This document shows positions 33,073 through 45,179 of a stretch of 64,000 nucleotides of DNA, piece by piece. How positions within the stretch are numbered: position 1 is the first letter of the stretch; every line of letters starts with the position of its first letter. This DNA is from Candidatus Brocadiaceae bacterium (GTDB taxonomy: Bacteria > Planctomycetota > Brocadiia > SM23-32), in contig JAAYEJ010000053.1 in assembly GCA_012728835.1 (NCBI GenBank), positions 1 through 64,000 of the forward strand, written 5' to 3'. A program made the position numbers and the translations under genes. A model generated the notes under the pieces. That model ran no database searches. It saw only the letters and a list, made by a program, of their open reading frames with translations, and was not told where the DNA came from.

Positions 33073-34005
33073 TCAGGCGCCGCAGTTGCAGTTCCCGGCG
33101 TCCGGGTCCAGACCGAGCGTCGCCCAGACGCCCTCGGTCTCCTCGCAAAGCCCGACGGGGCAGACGTCGGCCAGGGCCTCGACGGCCGGGCGGTAGAGGC
33201 CCAGCCGGACCTCCAGCGGGTAGCGGGCCAGTTGGTGGCGGTCGGCCGGCTTCTCCAGGCCGGCGAACAGGCCGTTGTCGACGAAACGCCAGAGGTTCGC
33301 CTCCGCGCGCAGGGTCCCCAGCGTCACCCGTTCCGGCGCCAGCCGCCGGACCTGTTCGATGACCGCCGCGTAATCGAAGCCCGCGATCATGGGGTCGATA
33401 CGGATCCGCACGCGCCAGCCCTGATCCATGAGGCGCCGGGCCGCCTCCAGCCGGTCCTCTGCGGAGGCCGCGCCCGTCTCATACTCCGCGGCCGCATCGG
33501 GGGCATTCACGGAGAAGGAAACGATCACGTTCGCGCAGGGCGTCGTCTCGAACAGCGGCCCGCAGTCGCCGATGCCCCCCTTGGTCACGAGCAGCAGGCA
33601 GTGCGGGCGGCCCTTCGCCTCCGCCGCGGTTCGGAAGACCTCGACCAGCTTGCTCATGAGCGGGCGGTCGGGCTCGAAGGCGAGGCTGTCGGACAGGTTG
33701 CCCGTGTTCAGCGTGTAGGACTCCAGACCGTCGGTCGCGATCCAGTCGCGCACTTCGTCCATGATGCGCGCGGTGTTCGTGAACGCCTGTGCGCCGTCCA
33801 GGTACCAGAACGACGACTTCAGGTAGCAGTAGCTGCACTGCGGTGCGAACGTGCAGCCGTTTGCGTGCGCGAGCACGTAGAAGTTGGGGCAGACGGTGCC
33901 CGCGGGCGTTGTACGGAACACCTCGACGAACTGCGTCTGGCGTTCGCGCAGGGTGCAGGACGGTGCGTTGTCTCGGCTCAAAACGGGTACCCTCCCCTCA
34001 GTCAA
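33073..34005 (-). CDS. Spore-photoproduct-lyase-like radical SAM protein
   Basis: A 310-residue radical SAM enzyme of the SplB/DNA-repair-photolyase-like group. The cluster cysteines are in the segment GCTFAPQCSYCYLKSSFW. Further SPL-like blocks are SYTLNTGNLSDSLAFEP, LLLVTKGG, VIVSFSVNAPDAAAEYE and RVRIRIDPMIAGFDY. The C-terminus ends NCNCGA, possibly an added metal site. The frame has no ATG or GTG early, so TTG 34005 is used. It overlaps the upstream stop by 8 nt, which supports coupling with the metallohydrolase. UV-lesion repair is possible, but many relatives are uncharacterised. Confidence 0.8.
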   Translation of the reverse strand: MTEGRVPVLSRDNAPSCTLRERQTQFVEVFRTTPAGTVCPNFYVLAHANGCTFAPQCSYCYLKSSFWYLDGAQAFTNTARIMDEVRDWIATDGLESYTLNTGNLSDSLAFEPDRPLMSKLVEVFRTAAEAKGRPHCLLLVTKGGIGDCGPLFETTPCANVIVSFSVNAPDAAAEYETGAASAEDRLEAARRLMDQGWRVRIRIDPMIAGFDYAAVIEQVRRLAPERVTLGTLRAEANLWRFVDNGLFAGLEKPADRHQLARYPLEVRLGLYRPAVEALADVCPVGLCEETEGVWATLGLDPDAGNCNCGA

Positions 34006-34684
34006 GGCACAGCATCTCTCCCGGCGCCAGGACCGCCAGGCCGTCCGGGACGTGGTCGCAGAGATCCGGCAGGAACGTCCCGGCCGCGTGCCTGCGCCGT
34101 TCGTCGGCGTCCAGGTGGATCAGCACGTAGCGCCGCGGGGCCAGCGTCTCGATGAACGCCACCCAGCCGCCGCCCCACCAGGGCCCGATCAGCAGGACGT
34201 CGAGCGCGCCGAGTGCGGCCGCGTCGATGCGGCTCGTGTCCTCGTTGTCGCCGTCATGGAAGAACCGGAACCCGGCCGTCTCGACCAGGTACGAGTTGTG
34301 GTCGCGTGTGTGGAACGTGCGCAAGGCGGTCACCCGTGCGGACGGCAACTGCCGGCAGACGCTTCGGGCGCATTCGCCCGCAGGGGCAAGCGGCGGCTCC
34401 ATCTCGCAGAGCCGGTCGGCCGGCACCCTGTCCCGAAGCCGCCGGATCACCGAGCGCGGCCCGACGACGGTCGCGCCCGTGCGCCCGGCCGCATCGGCCA
34501 CTCGCCGGGCGTCGAAGTGGTCCCGATGCGCATGGGTGACCAGGATGAGGTCGGCCCGGTCGTCGCCCGGCACGGCCTGGCCGCCTTCGTCCGCCAGGCC
34601 GTGAAAGGCGTCGACGTAGACGACGGCGCCCGCCGCGGCGATGCACAGGCCGGCGTTGGAGATCAGCGTCACTTGGGCAGCCAT
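33998..34684 (-). CDS. Metallo-beta-lactamase-fold hydrolase (UlaG-like)
   Basis: A 228-residue metal-dependent hydrolase. The metal motif is THAHRDHFD (HxHxDH) at about residue 52, followed by TFHTRDHNSYLVE, FHDGDNED and a late VLIHLDADE. The arrangement fits the UlaG/YcfP-like single-domain branch. ATG 34684 begins MAAQVTLISNAGLC, a normal first strand for this fold. The longer open frame (from 34849) has an Arg/Gly-rich non-protein-like N-terminus. It is translationally coupled to the radical SAM gene. Confidence 0.78.
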   Translation of the reverse strand: MAAQVTLISNAGLCIAAAGAVVYVDAFHGLADEGGQAVPGDDRADLILVTHAHRDHFDARRVADAAGRTGATVVGPRSVIRRLRDRVPADRLCEMEPPLAPAGECARSVCRQLPSARVTALRTFHTRDHNSYLVETAGFRFFHDGDNEDTSRIDAAALGALDVLLIGPWWGGGWVAFIETLAPRRYVLIHLDADERRRHAAGTFLPDLCDHVPDGLAVLAPGEMLCLD

Positions 34685-34944
34685 GCAGGCAATCCGCCGG
34701 AACAGGGTCTCGAGGTGCTCCCGATGCCGAACGTCCCGATGCGGCCGACCGGCTCGACGGCAGGTCCTCATGTGCCATTCTACGGCCCCGTCGCGGCAGC
34801 GTCCAGGACAGCCGAGCCCCCCGGTGGGTGGCGCCGCGCGGGCCCCCACGGCGGCGGGGGGGGCAGGGGGGCATGCGCGGCCGGCGGGCGCTTCCGGCGG
34901 GTCTTCCTCGCGACGCCGATTTTACGAAAAACACGATTCAGGTA

Positions 34945-34972
34945 TTGACAACGCCGTGGCATACGTCATACT
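34945..34972 (+). promoter_or_regulatory. Sigma70-like promoter of the aminomutase operon
   Basis: TTGACA (34945-34950) and CATACT (34967-34972) are separated by 16 nt in the only A+T-rich part of this gap. The start site would be near 34979, about 255 nt ahead of the ATG at 35234. Confidence 0.6.
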
Positions 34973-35147
34973 AATGGGGATGATCTTGCCCGCCTGGTGA
35001 CAGGTGTAGTGGCAATGGCTGCAGCGGCAGACGGGCCGCTGTGCGTCCGAGGAACGAGCGCAGAGTGCGCCAAGACATGGGGGGACGGCTATCGGGTACC
35101 GCGACAACTGAGTAGAACGACCGTCGTGGCCGGCTGTCTGTCTTGAC

Positions 35148-35165
35148 GGTGTGCGCGTGCACACC
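35148..35165 (+). promoter_or_regulatory. Hairpin in aminomutase leader
   Basis: GGTGTGC and GCACACC pair as a 7-bp stem around a GCGT loop, about 70 nt before the start codon. It may affect translation or mark a regulatory element; function unknown. Confidence 0.4.
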
Positions 35166-35233
35166 GGTCCTCGAGTATGCGGCGTCCTTCCCCATCCCGA
35201 AGGCGCCAACCAGAGCGGGTGAGAAGACCAACG

Positions 35234-36580
35234 ATGAAGCACACGGACGATTCGACCGGAGAGGATTCCGACGACAGACCTCCATCGGATGCGGGCGGCA
35301 TAGCCGTCTGCCCCCGACCCACCGTTTCGGACGCCCCGTCTTTTGCGGCATTGATGGAGCGACCGGAGTGGGAAGACTGGCACTGGCAGATGCGCAGGCG
35401 CGTCCGGTCGCTCGCGCAACTGCAGCGGCTGTTTCCCGACCTGCCGACCTCCCTGGGGACGGCCGAGGCGATCGGCCGATTTCCCATGGCGATCACGCCG
35501 TACTACGCCTCCCTGATCCGTTCGCTGGACCCCGGCGATCCGATCCTGCAGATGTGCGTTCCGCAGGGGCGGGAATGCTGCGACCCGCCGCACCTGTGCA
35601 GCGACCCGCTGAAGGAAGACGACGACATGCCGGTGCCCGGGCTGGTGCACCGGTATGAGGACCGGGCACTGCTGCTGGCCACGACGGTGTGCGGCTCCTA
35701 CTGCCGCCACTGCACGCGCAAGCGCATCGCCGGGCAGCGCGAGACGACCGTCACGGCCGCTCAGCTTCGGGGCATCCGCACGTACCTGGAGGCCCATCCG
35801 GAGGTGCGCGACGTGATCGTGTCCGGAGGCGATCCGTTCACGATGGAGACGACAGCCCTGGAGGCCGTCCTGCAGACGGTGCGGGGCGTGCCCTCGGTGG
35901 ACGTCGTGCGCATCGGCACGCGCTGCCCGGTCGTCATGCCCATGCGGGTGACGGACGATCTGGTGGCCATGCTGCGCCGCTACCATCCGCTCTACGTCAA
36001 CACCCATTTCAACCATCCGGCCGAGCTGACGCCCCGTTCGATCGAGGCCTGCGAGCGCCTGGCCGACGCCGGCATCCCCATGGGCAACCAGTCGGTGCTG
36101 CTGCGAGGCGTCAACGATTCACCGCAGATTCTGGAGGCGCTGTTCCGCGGCCTGCTGCGTATTCGCGTGCGCCCGTACTACCTGTACCAGTGCGATCTGG
36201 TGCGCGGGGTCGAGCACTTCCGCACGCCCCTGGCCCGGGGCATCGAGATCATGGAGTACCTCCGCGGGCGCCTCAGCGGCCTGGCGATCCCGAGCTTCAT
36301 CGTCGATGCGCCGGACGGCGGCGGCAAGATCCCCGTCCTGCCCAACTACGTCGTCTCGGTGAGCCCCACGCATACCGTGCTGAGGAACTACCAGGGGGTG
36401 CTGGTCGCCTACCCGGAGCCCTCGGACACCCCTTGGCCGGCCGGTGAGGCGGACGCCTCGACCGCACCGACCGGCGTCTGGCATCTGGCCAGCGGCAACG
36501 CCCGCCACGTCGAGCCGGCGGTCCCGCGTCGCCGGCGGCGCAAGCCCGGGCCGGCCCACGGAGACCGGGCGGTGGGGTAG
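35234..36580 (+). CDS. kamA: Lysine 2,3-aminomutase (KamA family radical SAM)
   Basis: A 448-residue radical SAM/PLP enzyme that should convert L-lysine to beta-lysine. The cluster motif is C153-GSY-C157-RH-C160, followed by SGGDP at 197-201. The two Asp residues that hold the lysine side-chain amine in clostridial enzyme (D293, D330) are matched by D321 (YQCDLVRG) and D358 (IVDAPDGGGK), and the PLP lysine is K365. Glutamate aminomutases change those Asp residues, so lysine is the expected substrate. N-terminal EWEDWHWQMRRRVRS is also typical. The zinc-binding C-terminal cysteines of the clostridial enzyme are missing. Weak ribosome site at ATG 35234. Confidence 0.9.
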   Translation: MKHTDDSTGEDSDDRPPSDAGGIAVCPRPTVSDAPSFAALMERPEWEDWHWQMRRRVRSLAQLQRLFPDLPTSLGTAEAIGRFPMAITPYYASLIRSLDPGDPILQMCVPQGRECCDPPHLCSDPLKEDDDMPVPGLVHRYEDRALLLATTVCGSYCRHCTRKRIAGQRETTVTAAQLRGIRTYLEAHPEVRDVIVSGGDPFTMETTALEAVLQTVRGVPSVDVVRIGTRCPVVMPMRVTDDLVAMLRRYHPLYVNTHFNHPAELTPRSIEACERLADAGIPMGNQSVLLRGVNDSPQILEALFRGLLRIRVRPYYLYQCDLVRGVEHFRTPLARGIEIMEYLRGRLSGLAIPSFIVDAPDGGGKIPVLPNYVVSVSPTHTVLRNYQGVLVAYPEPSDTPWPAGEADASTAPTGVWHLASGNARHVEPAVPRRRRRKPGPAHGDRAVG

Positions 36581-36677
36581 CGCCGGGCCGCGTTCAACAA
36601 CGGTTCCATTCGAAGCCTTCCCGTGCGCGCGGCCCTCGACGCCGTGCGCACGGGCCCCCAGGCGGTGAGGGTGCACT

Positions 36678-37691
36678 ATGGGTCTGAGTATCGGCCTGGT
36701 CTATGACCTCCGGAGCGATTACCTGGCCATGGGCTGGAGCGAGGAGGAGGTCGCCGAGTTCGACTCCGACGAGACGATCGACGCCCTGGCCGACGCGCTG
36801 ACGGCCCTGGGCCACGACGTGGAGCGGGTAGGGCACGCACGCGCGCTGGTCCGCCGGCTCTGCGACGGCCGCCGGTGGGACCTCGTGTTCAACATCGCCG
36901 AGGGCCGGCACGGCCGCTGCCGAGAGGCCGTCGTGCCGGCGCTGCTGGAACTCTACGAGGTGCCCTGCACGTTCTCCGACCCTCTCGTGTGCGCGATGAC
37001 ACTGGACAAGGCGGTCGCCAAGCGCGTCGTCGCCTCGGCCGGGCTGGCCACCCCCCGCTTCCACGTCGTGGCGGGCGAGGACGACCTGCCCGACGTCGAT
37101 CTGGCCTACCCCCTGTTCGCCAAGCCGTTGGCCGAGGGGACGGGGAAGGGCATCGACGGCTCCTCGCGGATCGAGACGCGGGAGCGTCTCGAGCAGGTCT
37201 GCCGGCGGCTGCTGGCGCGCTACCGCCAGCCGGTCATCGTGGAGGAGTACCTGCCCGGGCGGGAGTTCACGACCGGCATCCTGGGCACCGGACGCGACGC
37301 GCGCATCCTGGGCACCATGGAGGTGTGCATACGGCCGGACGCCCCGGAGAGCGACTACTCGCGGGAGATGAAGGAGCGCTGCAAGGAGTTCGTGGACTAC
37401 CGGCCGCTGGAGGCGTCCGCACTGCGCGATGAGCTGGAGGCCCTCGCGCTGGGGGCCTACCGGGTGCTCGAGGTCCGCGACGCCGGCCGCCTGGACTTCC
37501 GGCTCGATTCCCGGGGGCGGCCCGCCTTCCTGGAGGCCAATCCGCTGCCCGGCCTGCACCCGACCCATTCGGACCTGCCCATGATCGCCACGCAGGAAGG
37601 CATGTCCTTCGTCCGGTTGATCGGGGAGATCGTCGAGAGCGCGACCACGCGGGTCGGCTCCGGCGCGGGAGGTGACCATGCCCGACCGTAG
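36678..37691 (+). CDS. ATP-grasp ligase, D-Ala-D-Ala-ligase-like (first of pair)
   Basis: A 337-residue ATP-grasp carboxylate-amine ligase. Key segments are LFAKPLAEGTGKGI (ATP lysine), VEEYLPGREFTTGILG, RLDFRLDSRG (Mg Asp) and FLEANPLPGLHP (Mg Glu/Asn). The DVVFNIAEG-like N-terminal block (here DLVFNIAEGRHG) is of the Ddl type. True Ddl would normally sit with mur/fts genes; this one lies 97 bp after an aminomutase and overlaps a second ligase by 14 nt, so it probably ligates beta-lysine or a product of it. ATG 36678 follows GAGGG. Confidence 0.85.
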   Translation: MGLSIGLVYDLRSDYLAMGWSEEEVAEFDSDETIDALADALTALGHDVERVGHARALVRRLCDGRRWDLVFNIAEGRHGRCREAVVPALLELYEVPCTFSDPLVCAMTLDKAVAKRVVASAGLATPRFHVVAGEDDLPDVDLAYPLFAKPLAEGTGKGIDGSSRIETRERLEQVCRRLLARYRQPVIVEEYLPGREFTTGILGTGRDARILGTMEVCIRPDAPESDYSREMKERCKEFVDYRPLEASALRDELEALALGAYRVLEVRDAGRLDFRLDSRGRPAFLEANPLPGLHPTHSDLPMIATQEGMSFVRLIGEIVESATTRVGSGAGGDHARP

Positions 37692-39231
37692 CGAAGGCGT
37701 CCTGATCCTGTACAACGTGCCCCTGAACGCCGACGGAGTCGACGACGCCCCGTGCGCGGAGGCCGATGCGGGTGTGCTGGACCAGGTGCGGGCGGTCGGG
37801 CACGCGCTGGAGGCCCTGGGCGTCCCGTTCCGAAGCGCCGGCGTGCGCACCCTGGGGGACCTGCCGCGGGAACTGGCGACGGCCCCGGAGGCCGCGGTCT
37901 TCAACCTCGTCGAGGCTCTGCGGGGCGATGCGCGCGACTTCACGCTCGTGCCCGCGCTCTGCGCAGCCTTCGGCAAGGCGTGCACGGGCGGCGACACCTT
38001 CTGCCTGGTCCACACTTTGGACAAGTGGCAGGCGAAGGCGGCGCTGCGGGCGGCCGGGGTGCCGGTGCCGGACGGCGTGCTGGCCGTGGCGCCCATGGCG
38101 GACGCGACCGGCCTGCCCGGGGGGCCGCTCATCGTCAAGCCGTGCCGGGCGGAGGCCAGCGAGGGGATCGACGCGGACTCGGTGTTCGAGGGCCAGGGGG
38201 CGGGCCTGGACGCGGCCGTCGAGCGCGTCTGCGCGCAGTTCGGCTGCCCGGCGCTCGTGGAGCGCTTCCTGTCCGGACGCGAGGTCAACGTGTCGGTGCT
38301 GCAGCGGGGGGCTTCGACGGAGGTGCTGCCGCTTGCGGAGATCGAGTTCGTGGACTTTCCGCCGGAGGCGCCCCGGATCGTCGGCTATCGGGCCAAGTGG
38401 CTTGCGGACTCCGCCGAGTTCCGCAACACGCCCCGGCGCATCCCGGCGGACCTGCCGGAGGCGACCGCCGACGAGGTGCGGCGCCAGGCCCTGCGCGCCT
38501 GGGAGGCGCTGGGTTGCCGCGATTTCGCACGCGTGGACTTCCGCCTGGACCGGCAGTTGCGCCCCCACGTGCTGGAGGTGAACGCCAACCCGGACCTCTC
38601 GCCGGACGGCGGCTTCGCTGCGGCGTTGGCGGCGGCCTCGATCCCGTTTGAGGAGTTCGTCCGCGTCGTGCTCGAGAACGCCCGCCGTCGCGCGGCCCGC
38701 ACCGAGGGGCGCGTGCAGGCGGCGCCGGGCGCGCCGGGGGGAGTGCGCATCCGGTGCTCGCGGCCCGACGATCGCGCCGCGATTGCGGCCATCGCGGTCG
38801 AGACGCGGGTGTTCCGCCCCGAGGAGGTGGCCGTGGCCTGCGAGGTGCTCGATGACGCCCTCGCCCAGGGTCCCGAGGGGGACTACCGGTCCTTCACCGC
38901 GGAGGTGGGCGGCCGGCCCGCCGGCTGGGTCTGCTTCGGGCCCACCCCGTGCACGCAGGCCACGTACGACATCTACTGGATCATGGTCGCCCCATGGGCG
39001 CAGGGCACGGGCGCGGGCCGCGCGCTCATCGCGCACGCGGAGGACCTGATTGCACGCAGCGGCGGGCGGCTGGCCGTCGTCGAGGCTTCGGGGGGCCCGC
39101 CCGGTGACCGCGCACGCGGCTTCTACGTGCGCGTCGGCTACGAGGAGGCCGGGCGCGTGCCCGACTTCTACGCGCCGGGGGACGACAAGGTGATCTACCT
39201 CAAGCGCCTCGGTCCGCCGGCCTCTTCGTGA
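37678..39231 (+). CDS. ATP-grasp ligase fused to GNAT acetyltransferase
   Basis: A 517-residue two-enzyme fusion. Residues ~1-345 are a Ddl-like ATP-grasp ligase (AVFNLVEAL, IVKPCRAEASEGIDADS, VERFLSGREVNVSVL, ARVDFRLDRQ, LEVNANPDLSPDGGF). Residues ~360-517 are a GNAT domain with the acetyl-CoA loop VAPWAQGTGAGRALI and the end FYVRVGYEEAGRVPDFYAPGDDK. ATG 37678 has GGGAGGTGA just upstream. A GTG two codons earlier is less likely. The overlap with the first ligase implies coupled expression. The fusion suggests that ligation and N-acetylation act on the same molecule. Confidence 0.87.
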   Translation: MPDRSEGVLILYNVPLNADGVDDAPCAEADAGVLDQVRAVGHALEALGVPFRSAGVRTLGDLPRELATAPEAAVFNLVEALRGDARDFTLVPALCAAFGKACTGGDTFCLVHTLDKWQAKAALRAAGVPVPDGVLAVAPMADATGLPGGPLIVKPCRAEASEGIDADSVFEGQGAGLDAAVERVCAQFGCPALVERFLSGREVNVSVLQRGASTEVLPLAEIEFVDFPPEAPRIVGYRAKWLADSAEFRNTPRRIPADLPEATADEVRRQALRAWEALGCRDFARVDFRLDRQLRPHVLEVNANPDLSPDGGFAAALAAASIPFEEFVRVVLENARRRAARTEGRVQAAPGAPGGVRIRCSRPDDRAAIAAIAVETRVFRPEEVAVACEVLDDALAQGPEGDYRSFTAEVGGRPAGWVCFGPTPCTQATYDIYWIMVAPWAQGTGAGRALIAHAEDLIARSGGRLAVVEASGGPPGDRARGFYVRVGYEEAGRVPDFYAPGDDKVIYLKRLGPPASS

Positions 39232-39474: not shown

Positions 39475-39515
39475 GGGCACGCCGCATGAGCACCGCACTC
39501 CCCGGGGAGCCGGCA

Positions 39516-41687
39516 ATGACGGCAGGGCAGGGCCTGCACTTCGACAGATTCGGCCGCAGCTATCACCTCCGGATCCGCTCCGCTGAGGATCTGGAGCGCG
39601 TGCTGTCCCTGGACGATGCGTTCTGGGTGGCCACGAGCGCTCCACTGTCGGGACTCGACTCGACGTCCGAGTTCCTCGCGTTCGTGGATGCGGACTCGAA
39701 CCGTCGCATCCGGGCCGAGGAGGTTCGCGCCGCGATCCGGTGGCTTTTGGAGCGACTCTCCGACCGCGACCACCTAACGGAGGAGACCGACCGGGTGGCC
39801 CTGGCGTGGATCGACGTCGACCGGCCGGAGGGACAGGCGCTGGCGGGCGCGGCGCGCTACATCCTGGCTCGGCTGGGCGAAACGGAGTCGGACGCGATCT
39901 GCGTGCAGAACGTGCACGCGTTCGAGCAGGAACTGCACACGCGCCCGATCAACGGAGACGGCGTCATCACGCCCCAGGCCGCCCGGGACGACGCCATGGC
40001 CCGTTTCATCTCCGACGCGGCCGAATGCACGGGCGGCACGCGGGACCTGACCGGCCGGGCCGGCATCACCGAGGAGCAGCTCGATGAGTTCCTCGAGCAG
40101 GCGCGCGCCTACCTCCGGTGGGTCGCGCAGGCGGACCTGCCGCAAGGCGTCTCGGCCACTCGGGTCATGCCGCTGGGCGAGCGGACGCCGGCGGCCTATG
40201 AGGCGTTCCGGGCCGTGGCGCAGAAGGTGGACGGGTTCTTCGCCCGCTGCCGAGTCGTACGGTTCGACCCCTCGGCCGCCCGGCGCATGGGCATCGGCGC
40301 AAGCGAGGTGGCCCCGGCGGACCTGAGCAGCCCCTCGGCGATCGACGCCGGCCTGGCCCGTGCGCCGCTGGCGGAGCCGAACGCCGAGGGCCTGCTGGCG
40401 CTCGACGACTCGGTCAACCCCATCTACCACGACGCGATCCGCACGTTTGCGCGCACGACCGTCTGGCCCATCCTGCGCGAGGCGGTGCCGGCCCTGACGG
40501 AGGACCTGTGGCGCCGGGTGACGGAGGTGCTCTCTCCTTACGCCGAATGGGTGGCTGCGAAGGAGGGCGGGGCGGTCGAACGGCTGGGTCGGCAGCGGCT
40601 GGCCGAGTGCCTGAGCGGGCGGTATGCAGCGCGGACCCGCGCCCTGCTGAGGGCCGACCGTGAGGTGGCCGTCCGGCTGGCGGAGGCGCGCGAACTGAAG
40701 AGGCTGCTGCTCTACCACAAGCATCTGCTGTCGTTGGCGAACAACTTCGTCAGTTTCCCGGACCTCTACACCCCCGGACGGCGTGCCGCCTTCGAGATGG
40801 GCTCGCTGGTCATGGACGGCCGCTGGTTCAACTTCGCCGTCAGGGTCGAAGACGTCCAGGAACACGCGAAGGTTGCACGTTCGGGGGGCATGTACGTGTT
40901 CTATGCCGAACTGACCCGAACGGACGTGCCCGAGGATATGATGGTGGTGGCGTTGCCGGCCACCGCGGGCACGCTCGGCAACCTGGGCCCTGGCAAGCGC
41001 GGGGTGTTCTACGACCGGCGGGGCCGGCACTACGACGCGCGCATCGTGCACATCATCGACAACCCCATCAGCTTCCACGAAGCGCTGGCATCGCCGTTCG
41101 TGCGCCTCGGGCGCTTTGTCAGCGGCAAGATCGAGGCCATCTCGGGTACGGCGGAGAGGGCGCTCGAAAACCGCCTGGACAAGGTCACCGAGAAGGTGCA
41201 GGTGGGCGTCGAGCAGGCCGTGGCCAGGCAGGCGCCCGTCGCCGCCGGGGCCGAGGCCGCGCGCACGTCGGCCCGCCGCCGCGACGTCCTGCTGGGCGCC
41301 AGCGTCTCGGTGGCCGCCCTGGGCTCCGCGTTCGCCTATGTCAGCTCCAGGCTGGTCGACCTGTTCGGGTTCATGAAGACGAACCCGATCCAGACGACCC
41401 TGGCGGTTCTGTCCGTGCCGCTCGTCGTGTTCGTGCCGACGGCGATCGTGGCCGCCATCAAGCTGAGCCGCCGCGACCTGAGCGCCCTGCTCGAAGGCTC
41501 CGGGTGGGCCATCAACGCGCGCATGCGCCTGGACCGGCACCAGCGCCTCCAGTTCACGCAACGGCCGCGGTTCCCGAAAGGGGCCACGGGCGGCCCGCGC
41601 TCCCGACGGCTGCGATGGGTGCTGATCCTGGTGCTGGCGCTGTCGCTTGCGGCCCTCCTCGTCTGGATGGGGCGCGACGCGGTATAA
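39516..41687 (+). CDS. Large membrane-anchored protein of unknown function with EF-hand-like loop
   Basis: A 723-residue protein not assigned to a family. An EF-hand-like calcium loop DADSNRRIRAEE is at about 55-66, and a second acidic NGDGVITPQ loop is near 145. The central part is helical. The C-terminal third has two to three membrane segments: VLLGASVSVAALGSAFAYV, TLAVLSVPLVVFVPTAIVAAI and WVLILVLALSLAALLVW at the very end. ATG 39516 has a GGGGAG site; ATG 39486 is too close to the start of transcription. Calcium binding is inferred from two loops only. Confidence 0.75.
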   Translation: MTAGQGLHFDRFGRSYHLRIRSAEDLERVLSLDDAFWVATSAPLSGLDSTSEFLAFVDADSNRRIRAEEVRAAIRWLLERLSDRDHLTEETDRVALAWIDVDRPEGQALAGAARYILARLGETESDAICVQNVHAFEQELHTRPINGDGVITPQAARDDAMARFISDAAECTGGTRDLTGRAGITEEQLDEFLEQARAYLRWVAQADLPQGVSATRVMPLGERTPAAYEAFRAVAQKVDGFFARCRVVRFDPSAARRMGIGASEVAPADLSSPSAIDAGLARAPLAEPNAEGLLALDDSVNPIYHDAIRTFARTTVWPILREAVPALTEDLWRRVTEVLSPYAEWVAAKEGGAVERLGRQRLAECLSGRYAARTRALLRADREVAVRLAEARELKRLLLYHKHLLSLANNFVSFPDLYTPGRRAAFEMGSLVMDGRWFNFAVRVEDVQEHAKVARSGGMYVFYAELTRTDVPEDMMVVALPATAGTLGNLGPGKRGVFYDRRGRHYDARIVHIIDNPISFHEALASPFVRLGRFVSGKIEAISGTAERALENRLDKVTEKVQVGVEQAVARQAPVAAGAEAARTSARRRDVLLGASVSVAALGSAFAYVSSRLVDLFGFMKTNPIQTTLAVLSVPLVVFVPTAIVAAIKLSRRDLSALLEGSGWAINARMRLDRHQRLQFTQRPRFPKGATGGPRSRRLRWVLILVLALSLAALLVWMGRDAV

Positions 41688-41722: not shown

Positions 41723-42133
41723 ATGTCGGACTGCCTGTTCTGCCGCATCGCGGAAGGGAAGATCCCGGCGGCCGTCCTGGCCGCCGACGAGCACGTGGTC
41801 AGCTTCCTGGACATCCGTCCGGTCAACCCCGGCCACGCGCTGGTCGTGCCCAGGCGCCATGCCGACGATCTGATGGGGCTGACGGAGGGCGAGATGCTGG
41901 CGGCGATGGCCATGGTGCGGCGGGTGGCGTCCGCCGTGGTGCAGGCGACCGGCAGTGCGGGCTTCCACGTCCTTCAGAACAACGGGGAGGCGGCCGGCCA
42001 GGTCGTCCGCCACGCGCATTTCCACGTGATTCCGCGGAGGCCCGGCGACGGCTTTGACCCGGGCTGGCGGCAGATCGAACCGGAGGCCGGGCAACTGGAG
42101 GCGCTGCAGGAGGCGATTCGTCGCCTGCTGTGA
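41723..42133 (+). CDS. HIT-family nucleotide hydrolase
   Basis: A 136-residue histidine-triad protein of the Hint branch (adenosine 5'-monophosphoramidase-like). The triad is VVRHAHFHVIPR (HxHxH) near residue 97. Earlier CLFCRIAEGKIPA holds the two cysteines common in the branch, and VPRRHADDL is also typical. Full length and intact. ACGGAGGT precedes ATG 41723. It has no obvious functional link to its neighbours. Confidence 0.93.
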   Translation: MSDCLFCRIAEGKIPAAVLAADEHVVSFLDIRPVNPGHALVVPRRHADDLMGLTEGEMLAAMAMVRRVASAVVQATGSAGFHVLQNNGEAAGQVVRHAHFHVIPRRPGDGFDPGWRQIEPEAGQLEALQEAIRRLL

Positions 42134-42173
42134 CGCCGCCCGGGGGCCGGATGCAGGCGGCCGGGGGGCAGGG

Positions 42174-45100
42174 ATGAGGATCTCGTTGGCAGCGCTGGTC
42201 GTTCTCCTGCTCTGGGGTGCGTGTGCACCTGCTGGGGCAGCGACCAGGCTGACCGAGATCCCGTCCGACGGCGGCGCGACCTACAGACTGGACAACGGGG
42301 CGGTGTCGGTGGCGGTCCTGCCGGCCGACGGGGCGGCCGTGGTCCTTCGCGGATCCCCGGCCGGAGGTTCGGGCCACCTGGTGCGCGACGTGTACCTTGG
42401 CCGGCCCTGCCGGTACCGTCTGGCCGACCTCGTGCGGTCCGACTCGCTGGCGGTCCTGCGCCTGCACTGGGAGAGCGTGGAGGGCCTCGAGGTCGTTAAG
42501 ACGATCTCCGTGCTCGACGGCGTCCGGCTGGTGCGCGTGGACTACGAGGTCACGAATGCCTCCGGTTCGGACGCGACCCTCGGCACGGGGTTCCGGTTCG
42601 GGGCCACGGCGCCGGACGGGCGGGTTGTCGTGCGCCATGCCGGGGGGCAGATGCGCGGGACGGCGGAAGAACTGCCCGACGCCTCGGGCGCCTCGTTCCG
42701 TTCTGTTGCCTGGTTCGCGCTGACCGCCCCCGGCGGCGACGGGCTCGCCGTCGTGGCGCGCGGGGGCGCCCTGAGCCAGCTCGACCTGCAGCGTCCCGGC
42801 CCGGACGAGATGGTTGCGAACGGCTGGCTCCGTGCGCTGCCGGAAGGGCGGGTTCTGCGGACCCGCCTGACGCTTGTGCCCGTCGAGCATATGGAGGGGC
42901 TGGTCAGTGCGAGCGAGTCGCACCTCTGCGCCGTCGGCATGGAGCACGTGGCGAATGCCTGCCGCATCTCGCTGCAGGTGCTGCCGCTGCTGGAGACCGT
43001 CAACGGCCGGGCACGTCTCGAACTGGCCGACCCCACGGGGGCGGTCCTGTCCATCGATGCCGGACGGCTGACACTGGCCGTCGGCCGGCCCACCCCCATG
43101 ACACTGCACTGGGGCAACCCGAAGCCGGGCGTCTACGACATGCGTCTGCTTCTCCCCGGCCTTCCCGCACCCCTGGTCCTGGGACGATGTCGCATCGCGG
43201 CGGACGGGCCGCGCCTGGAGCCGTCCCCCGGCCGGCCGGTGGGGCTGGGCCGCCTGGGGACGGTGCGGCCGCGTGCCGGGCAGGGCGGGGCGGCGGGGCC
43301 GGAGAGCCGCGCGGACATGTTCTACGGCGGGCCGTCCGAACGTCTGAGCGTCGTTCGGACGGACCTGGGGGTGGACGAGACGGAGACCCTGGTCGTCGGC
43401 GTCTCGCAGGGGTTGACAGGAGGGCCCCTGGAGGCCCGGCTCAGCCGGTTCGTGGCGAGGCAGATGGGCCGCGAGCTGTCCTCGAGCGCCTGGGAGTTCC
43501 TGCGGATCGTCGCCGCACGGGCCGCCGACAGCACGCACGTTCCGGGTTCGGTCACGGCGGCGGGAGCGGGGCCGGTGCAGACCGGCTCGCCCGTCGGGCT
43601 GAGGCTGCGCAGCCCGAACGTCCATGCGGCGACCTACGCGGGGCATCTGGAGGTTCGGCGCGGGCGCGAGAACGGTTCGCTGCCGATCGAGGCCACCATC
43701 TGGCCGGTCCGGCGTCTTCGGCCCGGCGCCGTACGCCTCTACCTGATGGCCCCGCGGGTCGATCCGTTTCAGACGGACTGGCGGGCCGACATCCCGACGG
43801 CCGCGCTGAGGCGGGCCGAGGTGGCCAATGTCGCGCTGGACGCCGACTCGGTGGCCCACGGCGACGCGGTCCGTGTTCTGCCGGAGACGGGGCCGGCGGT
43901 GCCGGTGCGCCGGTGGATGCGGGACCGGTCTGCCTCCGAGGCGGGGGGCGCACTCCCGGCGCTGGACTTCAGTGCGGCCACCGCCCGGCTCACTCGCCTG
44001 CTCGTGGCCGGGCTGCCGGACGTGACCGTGGCAGGGCGCCTGACGCCGGACGGCCTGCTGCCGCCCGAGGCGCCGCCGGGGGAGAGGGGCCGGATGCTGG
44101 AGTGGTACTGGGGGGCGTTTGCGGAGCACCTGCGTTCGCTCGGGTTCGACCGGCTCTGCTTCGTGTCGCCCGAGCCGTACGGCGTCGACGATGCCGGGGC
44201 CGGGTGGCTCGAGACGGCCCATGCCCTGCGCAGCGCCGGCTGGTCCGTGTGCGGGCCGTTCGAGCCCGGCAGCCTGACGCCGGCCATGGTCGACCGGCTG
44301 GCCGACCTGACCGACCTGGTGCTGCTGCGTGCGGATGCGCCCGGCGCCGTCGAGGCGGCCGCTGCCCTGGCCGGTCGCGTCCGGCTGGGTGCATGGGCGC
44401 CGGGCCTTCCGGCCGACATCTCCGCGCACGAAGGGCGGCTGCATGCGTATCGGTGGGCGACCGGCGACGCGGACACGATCGTGCTCGACCAGCCGAACCG
44501 GCCCGCCCTGCAGTCCACGGACGACCTGCGGGCCCTGGACACCCTGGCATGGGAAGGGTTCCGCGACGGCCTCGACGAGGTCTGCTACGCGGCTCTTCTG
44601 GGCGGCCCGCGGACGGCCCGCATGGAGGACGTTCCGGCCAAGCGCGAGGTCCTGGCCCAGATCTCCGCGTCGGCGCCCGAGGGCGGTCTGCGCGAGCCGA
44701 ACCTGCGCTGGCGCGACCTGACGCTCGTGGAGGCCGGCAAGCCCCGGGCCGCCATCGCGGTGGACTGGGACTCGCCCGTGCAGAACGCGCAGGCCGACCT
44801 GCTGAACGCCCTGGTCCGCCGGCGCTGCGGCGGCCGGTTGCCGGTGGTGGGCCTGGGGGAGATCGGGCCGACGCCGGAGGCGCCGGTCGTGCTGCTGTTC
44901 GGGGCCCCCGAGACCAACGGGCGGATCGCCGACCTGGCGGCGGATGCCGCACCGCGCCTCAGCGAGCGTCTGCGGAGGGACCGGTATGCCTGCGTCGAGT
45001 TCCGTCGTCAGGGGGTACGCTTCGTCGGGCTCCTGAACGCGGCGGACGCGGACCACGGCCTCCCCGTGCTGGCCTTCTGCGCGGGGTTTCGCCAGGAGAC

Positions 45101-45179
45101 GGGAGCAGAGGCCCGGGGCGCATCCCGGCTGCTGCGGGAACCGGGCACCGGAATGACGGAGGGTAGCCGATGGAACTGA
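42174..45179 (+). CDS. Large secreted protein, mutarotase-like N-terminus, function unknown
   Basis: A 1001-residue exported protein with a signal peptide (MRISLAALVVLLLWGACAPAGA). Residues ~25-240 form a beta-sandwich like galactose-mutarotase folds (LDNGAVSVAVLPADGAAVV, KTISVLDGVRLVRVDYEV). The middle is beta-rich. Residues ~630-830 look like a TIM barrel (MLEWYWGAFAEHLRSLGFDRLCFVSPEP, VCGPFEPGSLTP). This is the arrangement of several glycoside-hydrolase-like secreted proteins, but I cannot name a GH family or catalytic acids. ATG 42174 is the first start followed by a signal peptide. Its end overlaps the next gene by 10 nt. Confidence 0.7.
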   Translation: MRISLAALVVLLLWGACAPAGAATRLTEIPSDGGATYRLDNGAVSVAVLPADGAAVVLRGSPAGGSGHLVRDVYLGRPCRYRLADLVRSDSLAVLRLHWESVEGLEVVKTISVLDGVRLVRVDYEVTNASGSDATLGTGFRFGATAPDGRVVVRHAGGQMRGTAEELPDASGASFRSVAWFALTAPGGDGLAVVARGGALSQLDLQRPGPDEMVANGWLRALPEGRVLRTRLTLVPVEHMEGLVSASESHLCAVGMEHVANACRISLQVLPLLETVNGRARLELADPTGAVLSIDAGRLTLAVGRPTPMTLHWGNPKPGVYDMRLLLPGLPAPLVLGRCRIAADGPRLEPSPGRPVGLGRLGTVRPRAGQGGAAGPESRADMFYGGPSERLSVVRTDLGVDETETLVVGVSQGLTGGPLEARLSRFVARQMGRELSSSAWEFLRIVAARAADSTHVPGSVTAAGAGPVQTGSPVGLRLRSPNVHAATYAGHLEVRRGRENGSLPIEATIWPVRRLRPGAVRLYLMAPRVDPFQTDWRADIPTAALRRAEVANVALDADSVAHGDAVRVLPETGPAVPVRRWMRDRSASEAGGALPALDFSAATARLTRLLVAGLPDVTVAGRLTPDGLLPPEAPPGERGRMLEWYWGAFAEHLRSLGFDRLCFVSPEPYGVDDAGAGWLETAHALRSAGWSVCGPFEPGSLTPAMVDRLADLTDLVLLRADAPGAVEAAAALAGRVRLGAWAPGLPADISAHEGRLHAYRWATGDADTIVLDQPNRPALQSTDDLRALDTLAWEGFRDGLDEVCYAALLGGPRTARMEDVPAKREVLAQISASAPEGGLREPNLRWRDLTLVEAGKPRAAIAVDWDSPVQNAQADLLNALVRRRCGGRLPVVGLGEIGPTPEAPVVLLFGAPETNGRIADLAADAAPRLSERLRRDRYACVEFRRQGVRFVGLLNAADADHGLPVLAFCAGFRQETGAEARGASRLLREPGTGMTEGSRWN

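Follow-up and report, generated by a model that had tools for sequence, protein, structure and literature searches.

A candidate beta-lysine pathway of an aminomutase, ATP-grasp ligases and an acetyltransferase in Planctomycetota

What might a lysine 2,3-aminomutase do beside two enzymes that resemble D-alanine-D-alanine ligases (Ddl), the second of them joined to an acetyltransferase? Three such genes, here KamA, LigA and LigB-GNAT, lie on the plus strand downstream of a single promoter-like site in the window (the whole 64,000-nucleotide stretch that was analysed), which belongs to a planctomycete genome of 3.07 Mb (Table 1). A literature search confined to open-licence papers, with subscription papers outside its scope, found no published description of KamA with ATP-grasp or Ddl-like ligases. 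The evidence given below makes it highly likely that these genes form one conserved beta-lysine pathway. Very probably, lysine is converted to beta-lysine, joined to other building blocks by the two ligases and provided with an acetyl group.

Table 1. Features of the cluster, in window positions.
Feature	Position	Strand	Basis
Sigma70-like promoter match, TTGACA-16-CATACT	34945..34972	+	Consensus scan, 10/12; consensus match only
KamA, lysine 2,3-aminomutase; D321/D358, K365, CxxxCxxC	35234..36580	+	Profiles, alignment to 2A5H
LigA, Ddl-fold ATP-grasp ligase, donor-side motif altered	36678..37691	+	Profiles, alignment, predicted structure
LigB-GNAT, ATP-grasp ligase (about residues 1-345) fused to GNAT acetyltransferase (about 358-519)	37678..39231	+	Profiles, predicted structure

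Enzymes encoded by the cluster

The KamA start codon lies about 255 nt 3' of the presumed transcription start at the sigma70-like site, itself a consensus match only, and an Rfam scan of this leader returned no element and no riboswitch. A sequence-only reading of the locus had proposed one promoter with a leader of this length, and one such site was indeed found. The same reading described two Ddl-like ATP-grasp genes overlapping by 14 nt, the second fused to a GNAT; profiles, structural models and coordinates agree with it, the overlap being 14 nt when LigB is taken from the ATG at 37678. Divergent from KamA, a minus-strand gene (33073-34005) encodes a radical SAM protein with weak similarity to spore photoproduct lyase and adjoins a gene for a beta-lactamase-fold hydrolase (33998-34849). 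On the other side of the cluster, two plus-strand frames of 733 aa (39486-41687) and 1023 aa (42108-45179) draw no Pfam hit; within the longer frame, positions 43446-43526 were called as a tRNA-Arg (cct), which may be false.

The best solved relative of KamA is the lysine 2,3-aminomutase 2A5H (E 1.4e-127), with most of the length aligned. D321 and D358 align with the YQCD and VDAP aspartates of 2A5H and K365 with its PLP lysine, as previously assigned, and C153, C157 and C160 make up the CxxxCxxC radical SAM motif. The Asp pair, the PLP lysine and the cysteine motif are invariant in all 51 sequences of the first set and in 17 more from a second phylum. As the Asp pair does not vary in either phylum, beta-lysine would be the expected product. 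The C-terminal cysteines seen in the 2A5H sequence are absent from KamA. Against the AblA equivalog KamA scores 476.1 bits, below the cut-off of 525.4; AblA is the top-scoring equivalog of its family, and the cut-off of the KamA-family subfamily is exceeded. The host genome also carries a second KamA-family gene (G000:C45:108372-109580; L086:7761-9491). Its product has a long extension at the N-terminus and does not have the two lysine-binding aspartates; its nearest model is glutamate 2,3-aminomutase, at a score far under the cut-off.

Both LigA and LigB match the profile Dala_Dala_lig_C, and the predicted structures of the ligases (mean pLDDT 91) find Ddl structures as their best matches. 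Their Ddl scores are nonetheless low, at 154 bits for LigA and 102 for LigB against a curated cut-off of 243, and all Ddl cut-offs lie far above them. The canonical HGxxGEDG is absent from LigA, with EGRHGRCRE in its place, and alignment shows that R271 and G292 retain the Ddl acceptor-side Arg and Gly. On the donor side E27, D29 and E75, and likewise R82 and E83, are invariant in the alignments of both phyla; E. coli DdlB has a histidine at the position aligned with E75. Such an acidic site would suit a dibasic donor, and the alignment weakly suggests beta-lysine as the donor of LigA, though beta-lysine could instead be its acceptor. In LigB the residues for ATP and metal are conserved, but NP[DC]xxPD stands where Ddl has its acceptor region, which points to a different acceptor. 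The profile-detected GNAT domain at the LigB C-terminus has as nearest solved relative 2R7H (E 2e-29), a putative D-alanine N-acetyltransferase.

Distribution and hierarchy of the gene set

Conservation was assessed in 294 Planctomycetota genomes, with thresholds of E<1e-45 for LigA, E<1e-15 for GNAT and at least 300 bits for KamA. LigA was present in 56 genomes, representing 31 families, GNAT in 53 and KamA in 65; KamA, LigA and GNAT occurred together in 50. KamA is present in 54 of the 56 LigA genomes, a co-occurrence with a Fisher p of about 1e-45, uncorrected for shared ancestry. A KamA match is absent in two LigA genomes (G004 and G051) and LigA is absent in 11 KamA genomes, with incomplete assemblies accounting for part of these exceptions. 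The genes are also co-present where they are not linked. In a genome assembled as a single 6.76-Mb contig (G105), GNAT is found at 1.79 Mb, the ligases at 3.59 Mb and KamA at 5.34 Mb; the set is split over different contigs in family f36, and its genes are unlinked in G167 too. Co-presence of unlinked genes favours a single pathway.

Most loci fetched around LigB relatives hold KamA, LigA, LigB and GNAT together with variable spacing, in two main orders, either KamA first or LigA-LigB-GNAT-KamA. The recurrence of KamA, ligases and GNAT in one neighbourhood, proposed earlier as a check on the pathway, is thus observed, along with co-occurrence of the unlinked genes. An all-against-all comparison of neighbours found no further family kept in most loci; the other large neighbour groups in it were rejected as antisense or alternative frames. 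A plasmid search with LigA returned distant ATP-grasp relatives only. The LigB-GNAT fusion recurs in seven fetched loci beyond the window and a LigA-LigB fusion occurs in one, while apparent LigA-LigB-GNAT triple fusions in L044/L045 were rejected, LigA being in a different frame. Among single loci, one (L080:8313-10310) has a tandem fusion of two LigA-like domains, joined head to tail, beside KamA, and its genome gave no GNAT match; another has a RhuM-family gene, apparently inserted into the cluster, between LigB and GNAT (L132:4906-5916).

The second phylum is that of the genome of contig L037, titled Gammaproteobacteria, and from this title it is taken as Pseudomonadota. LigA was found in 20 of its 259 genomes; of the 19 loci fetched, 18 have KamA no more than about 2 kb from LigA. 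LigB and GNAT are both present in the same nine of these 19 genomes and both missing from the other ten, in which the strong matches are to LigA itself or to Ddl-like genes only. Joint presence or absence of the pair (nine versus ten) identifies KamA and LigA as the core, and LigB with GNAT as a linked extension missing in some bacteria. LigB is fused to GNAT or strictly co-occurs with it, which suggests that one molecule undergoes both the second ligation and acetylation. The neighbours of loci with only KamA and LigA (gyrB, CstA, LolA-like and efflux proteins) were judged ordinary synteny. The set or parts of it also appear on metagenome-assembled contigs titled Bacteroidetes, Rhizobium, Asaia and Victivallales, for which binning errors are possible.

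Several loci carry accessory genes. In five, in or beside the cluster, a GNAT is joined to a histone-deacetylase-type domain; at L069:8886-10664 (also L074, L039, L036 and L093) this is a second GNAT, so that acetylase and deacetylase share one chain. A CxxCxxCC (PF03692) gene adjoins the cluster in six loci (L058, L074, L078, L095, L097 and L104), and a DUF3109 gene does so in eight (L053, L054, L062, L073, L077, L098, L099 and L100). At L104 the cysteine-cluster gene is next to a KamA that does not adjoin LigA. The window cluster has none of these accessory genes. The cysteine motif is distantly similar to that of the [4Fe-4S] lysine N-methyltransferase FliB (PMC8598068), and this analogy raises the possibility that the product is N-methylated. 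In the closest relatives of the window cluster, but not in the window, a TetR-family regulator is directly upstream of KamA; such regulators were noted at L049:13010-13678 and at L034/L045, L035/L044, L050, L051, L093 and L094.

Proposed pathway and alternative explanations

Family membership suggests the chemistry of each enzyme. KamA would isomerise L-lysine to beta-lysine; LigA, with ATP, would activate beta-lysine and attach it to an alpha-amino acid at the amine; LigB would form a second amide bond; and the fused or coupled GNAT would acetylate an amine of the same molecule. An acetylated beta-lysine peptide or amide made by these steps as drawn is moderately favoured. Donor and acceptor roles, placed by alignment only, are weakly suggested, as are the order of steps and the biological role. 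The core of the earlier interpretation, an acetylated beta-lysine peptide or conjugate pathway distinct from AblA/AblB, is well supported by the conserved neighbourhood and by co-occurrence of the unlinked genes; neither of the two outcomes named in advance as refuting it was observed, and a separate ddl lies in the mur cluster.

As a special case of this pathway, the acetylated beta-lysine peptide may accumulate when cells meet salt or ammonia stress, as a counterpart of N-epsilon-acetyl-beta-lysine or N-acetylglutaminylglutamine amide. Known solutes include beta-amino acids and acetylated dipeptides (PMC1224877, PMC11337218), the distribution of the set is patchy, and the neighbour comparison found no exporter kept with it. 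However, neither a linked osmotic gene (neighbour comparison) nor a riboswitch (Rfam on the leader) was found, and sample names in several carrier contig titles, as read, suggest lakes or wastewater. Work on the solutes of Rhodopirellula baltica, a planctomycete that is not an established carrier, also makes no mention of lysine or dipeptides (PMC3694870). By analogy with known solutes, an osmolyte is a conceivable but rather unlikely product.

Simple synthesis of N-acetyl-beta-lysine, as by AblA/AblB, with ligases accessory to something else, would draw on the KamA and GNAT that both exist in the set. It is very unlikely, as TIGR03827 (AblB) has no match in the host genome while control genomes were positive, the GNAT of the set belongs to another family, and in the reduced loci the partner of KamA is LigA, not GNAT.

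The Ddl fold of both ligases and their nearest solved relatives, which are Ddl, could be read as D-Ala-D-Ala or similar ligation for peptidoglycan with KamA an unrelated neighbour, an outcome that the sequence-only reading had itself set against its proposal. The host has a separate, canonical ddl (L085:7721-8713) in the order murG-murC-murB-ddl-ftsQ, named by sequence and order; together with the lost LigA motif, the sub-threshold scores and the way in which LigA and LigB follow KamA across genomes, this leaves the peptidoglycan reading hardly credible. Equally improbable is a KamA supplying beta-lysine for modification of EF-P beside unrelated ligases: EpmB, an enzyme of that modification, is related to KamA, and EpmA occurs in four of the 11 KamA genomes without LigA, but the best genX (EpmA) match of the host scores 234.5 bits against a cut-off of 286.9, a level comparable to that in almost every planctomycete, in frames of about 500 aa, as lysyl-tRNA synthetase would give, and above-cut-off EpmA shows no association with LigA (10 of 56 LigA genomes versus 41 of 238 others, p = 1). 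A host that has a separate ddl within a mur cluster and lacks both AblB and an EpmA above threshold is a poor fit for all three of these roles.

For the beta-lysine peptide pathway, a wider proposal is offered tentatively, at a little short of even confidence. KamA, together with one or two ATP-grasp ligases dedicated to the task, would build beta-lysine peptides of an undescribed class independently of NRPS. Most lineages would acetylate them, linked cysteine-cluster or deacetylase genes might modify them further, and in Planctomycetota and the second phylum they would act as a conserved solute or as some other metabolite. The analysis predicts a compact small-molecule pathway, matched by no curated model, whose carriers span at least 31 families of planctomycetes as well as the second phylum. 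Genes likely annotated as D-Ala-D-Ala ligases would be reassigned, and the short beta-peptide ligase system is directly testable.

Comparison with known systems

The set resembles AblA/AblB, which makes the osmolyte N-epsilon-acetyl-beta-lysine, in pairing a lysine 2,3-aminomutase with an acetyltransferase; it differs in having no AblB, a ligase-fused GNAT of another family and one or two ATP-grasp ligases. With Ddl it shares the ATP-grasp fold, the ATP/Mg residues and, in LigA, the acceptor-side Arg and Gly, whereas the donor-side motif of LigA and the acceptor region of LigB are replaced, all family cut-offs are missed and the genomic partner is KamA, in a host with a separate ddl. EpmA/EpmB, the system of EF-P beta-lysylation, likewise includes a beta-lysine-making KamA relative, but the host is without above-cut-off EpmA and EpmA and LigA are not associated. 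The likeness to 2R7H, itself of putative function, lies in the GNAT family, as the nearest solved structure to the fused domain. In N-acetylglutaminylglutamine amide synthesis (Ngg), a GNAT and an ATP-grasp domain share one chain and the product is an acetylated dipeptide solute. LigB-GNAT also combines acetyltransferase and ATP-grasp in one polypeptide; here, in contrast, the GNAT is C-terminal and a lysine aminomutase belongs to the set.
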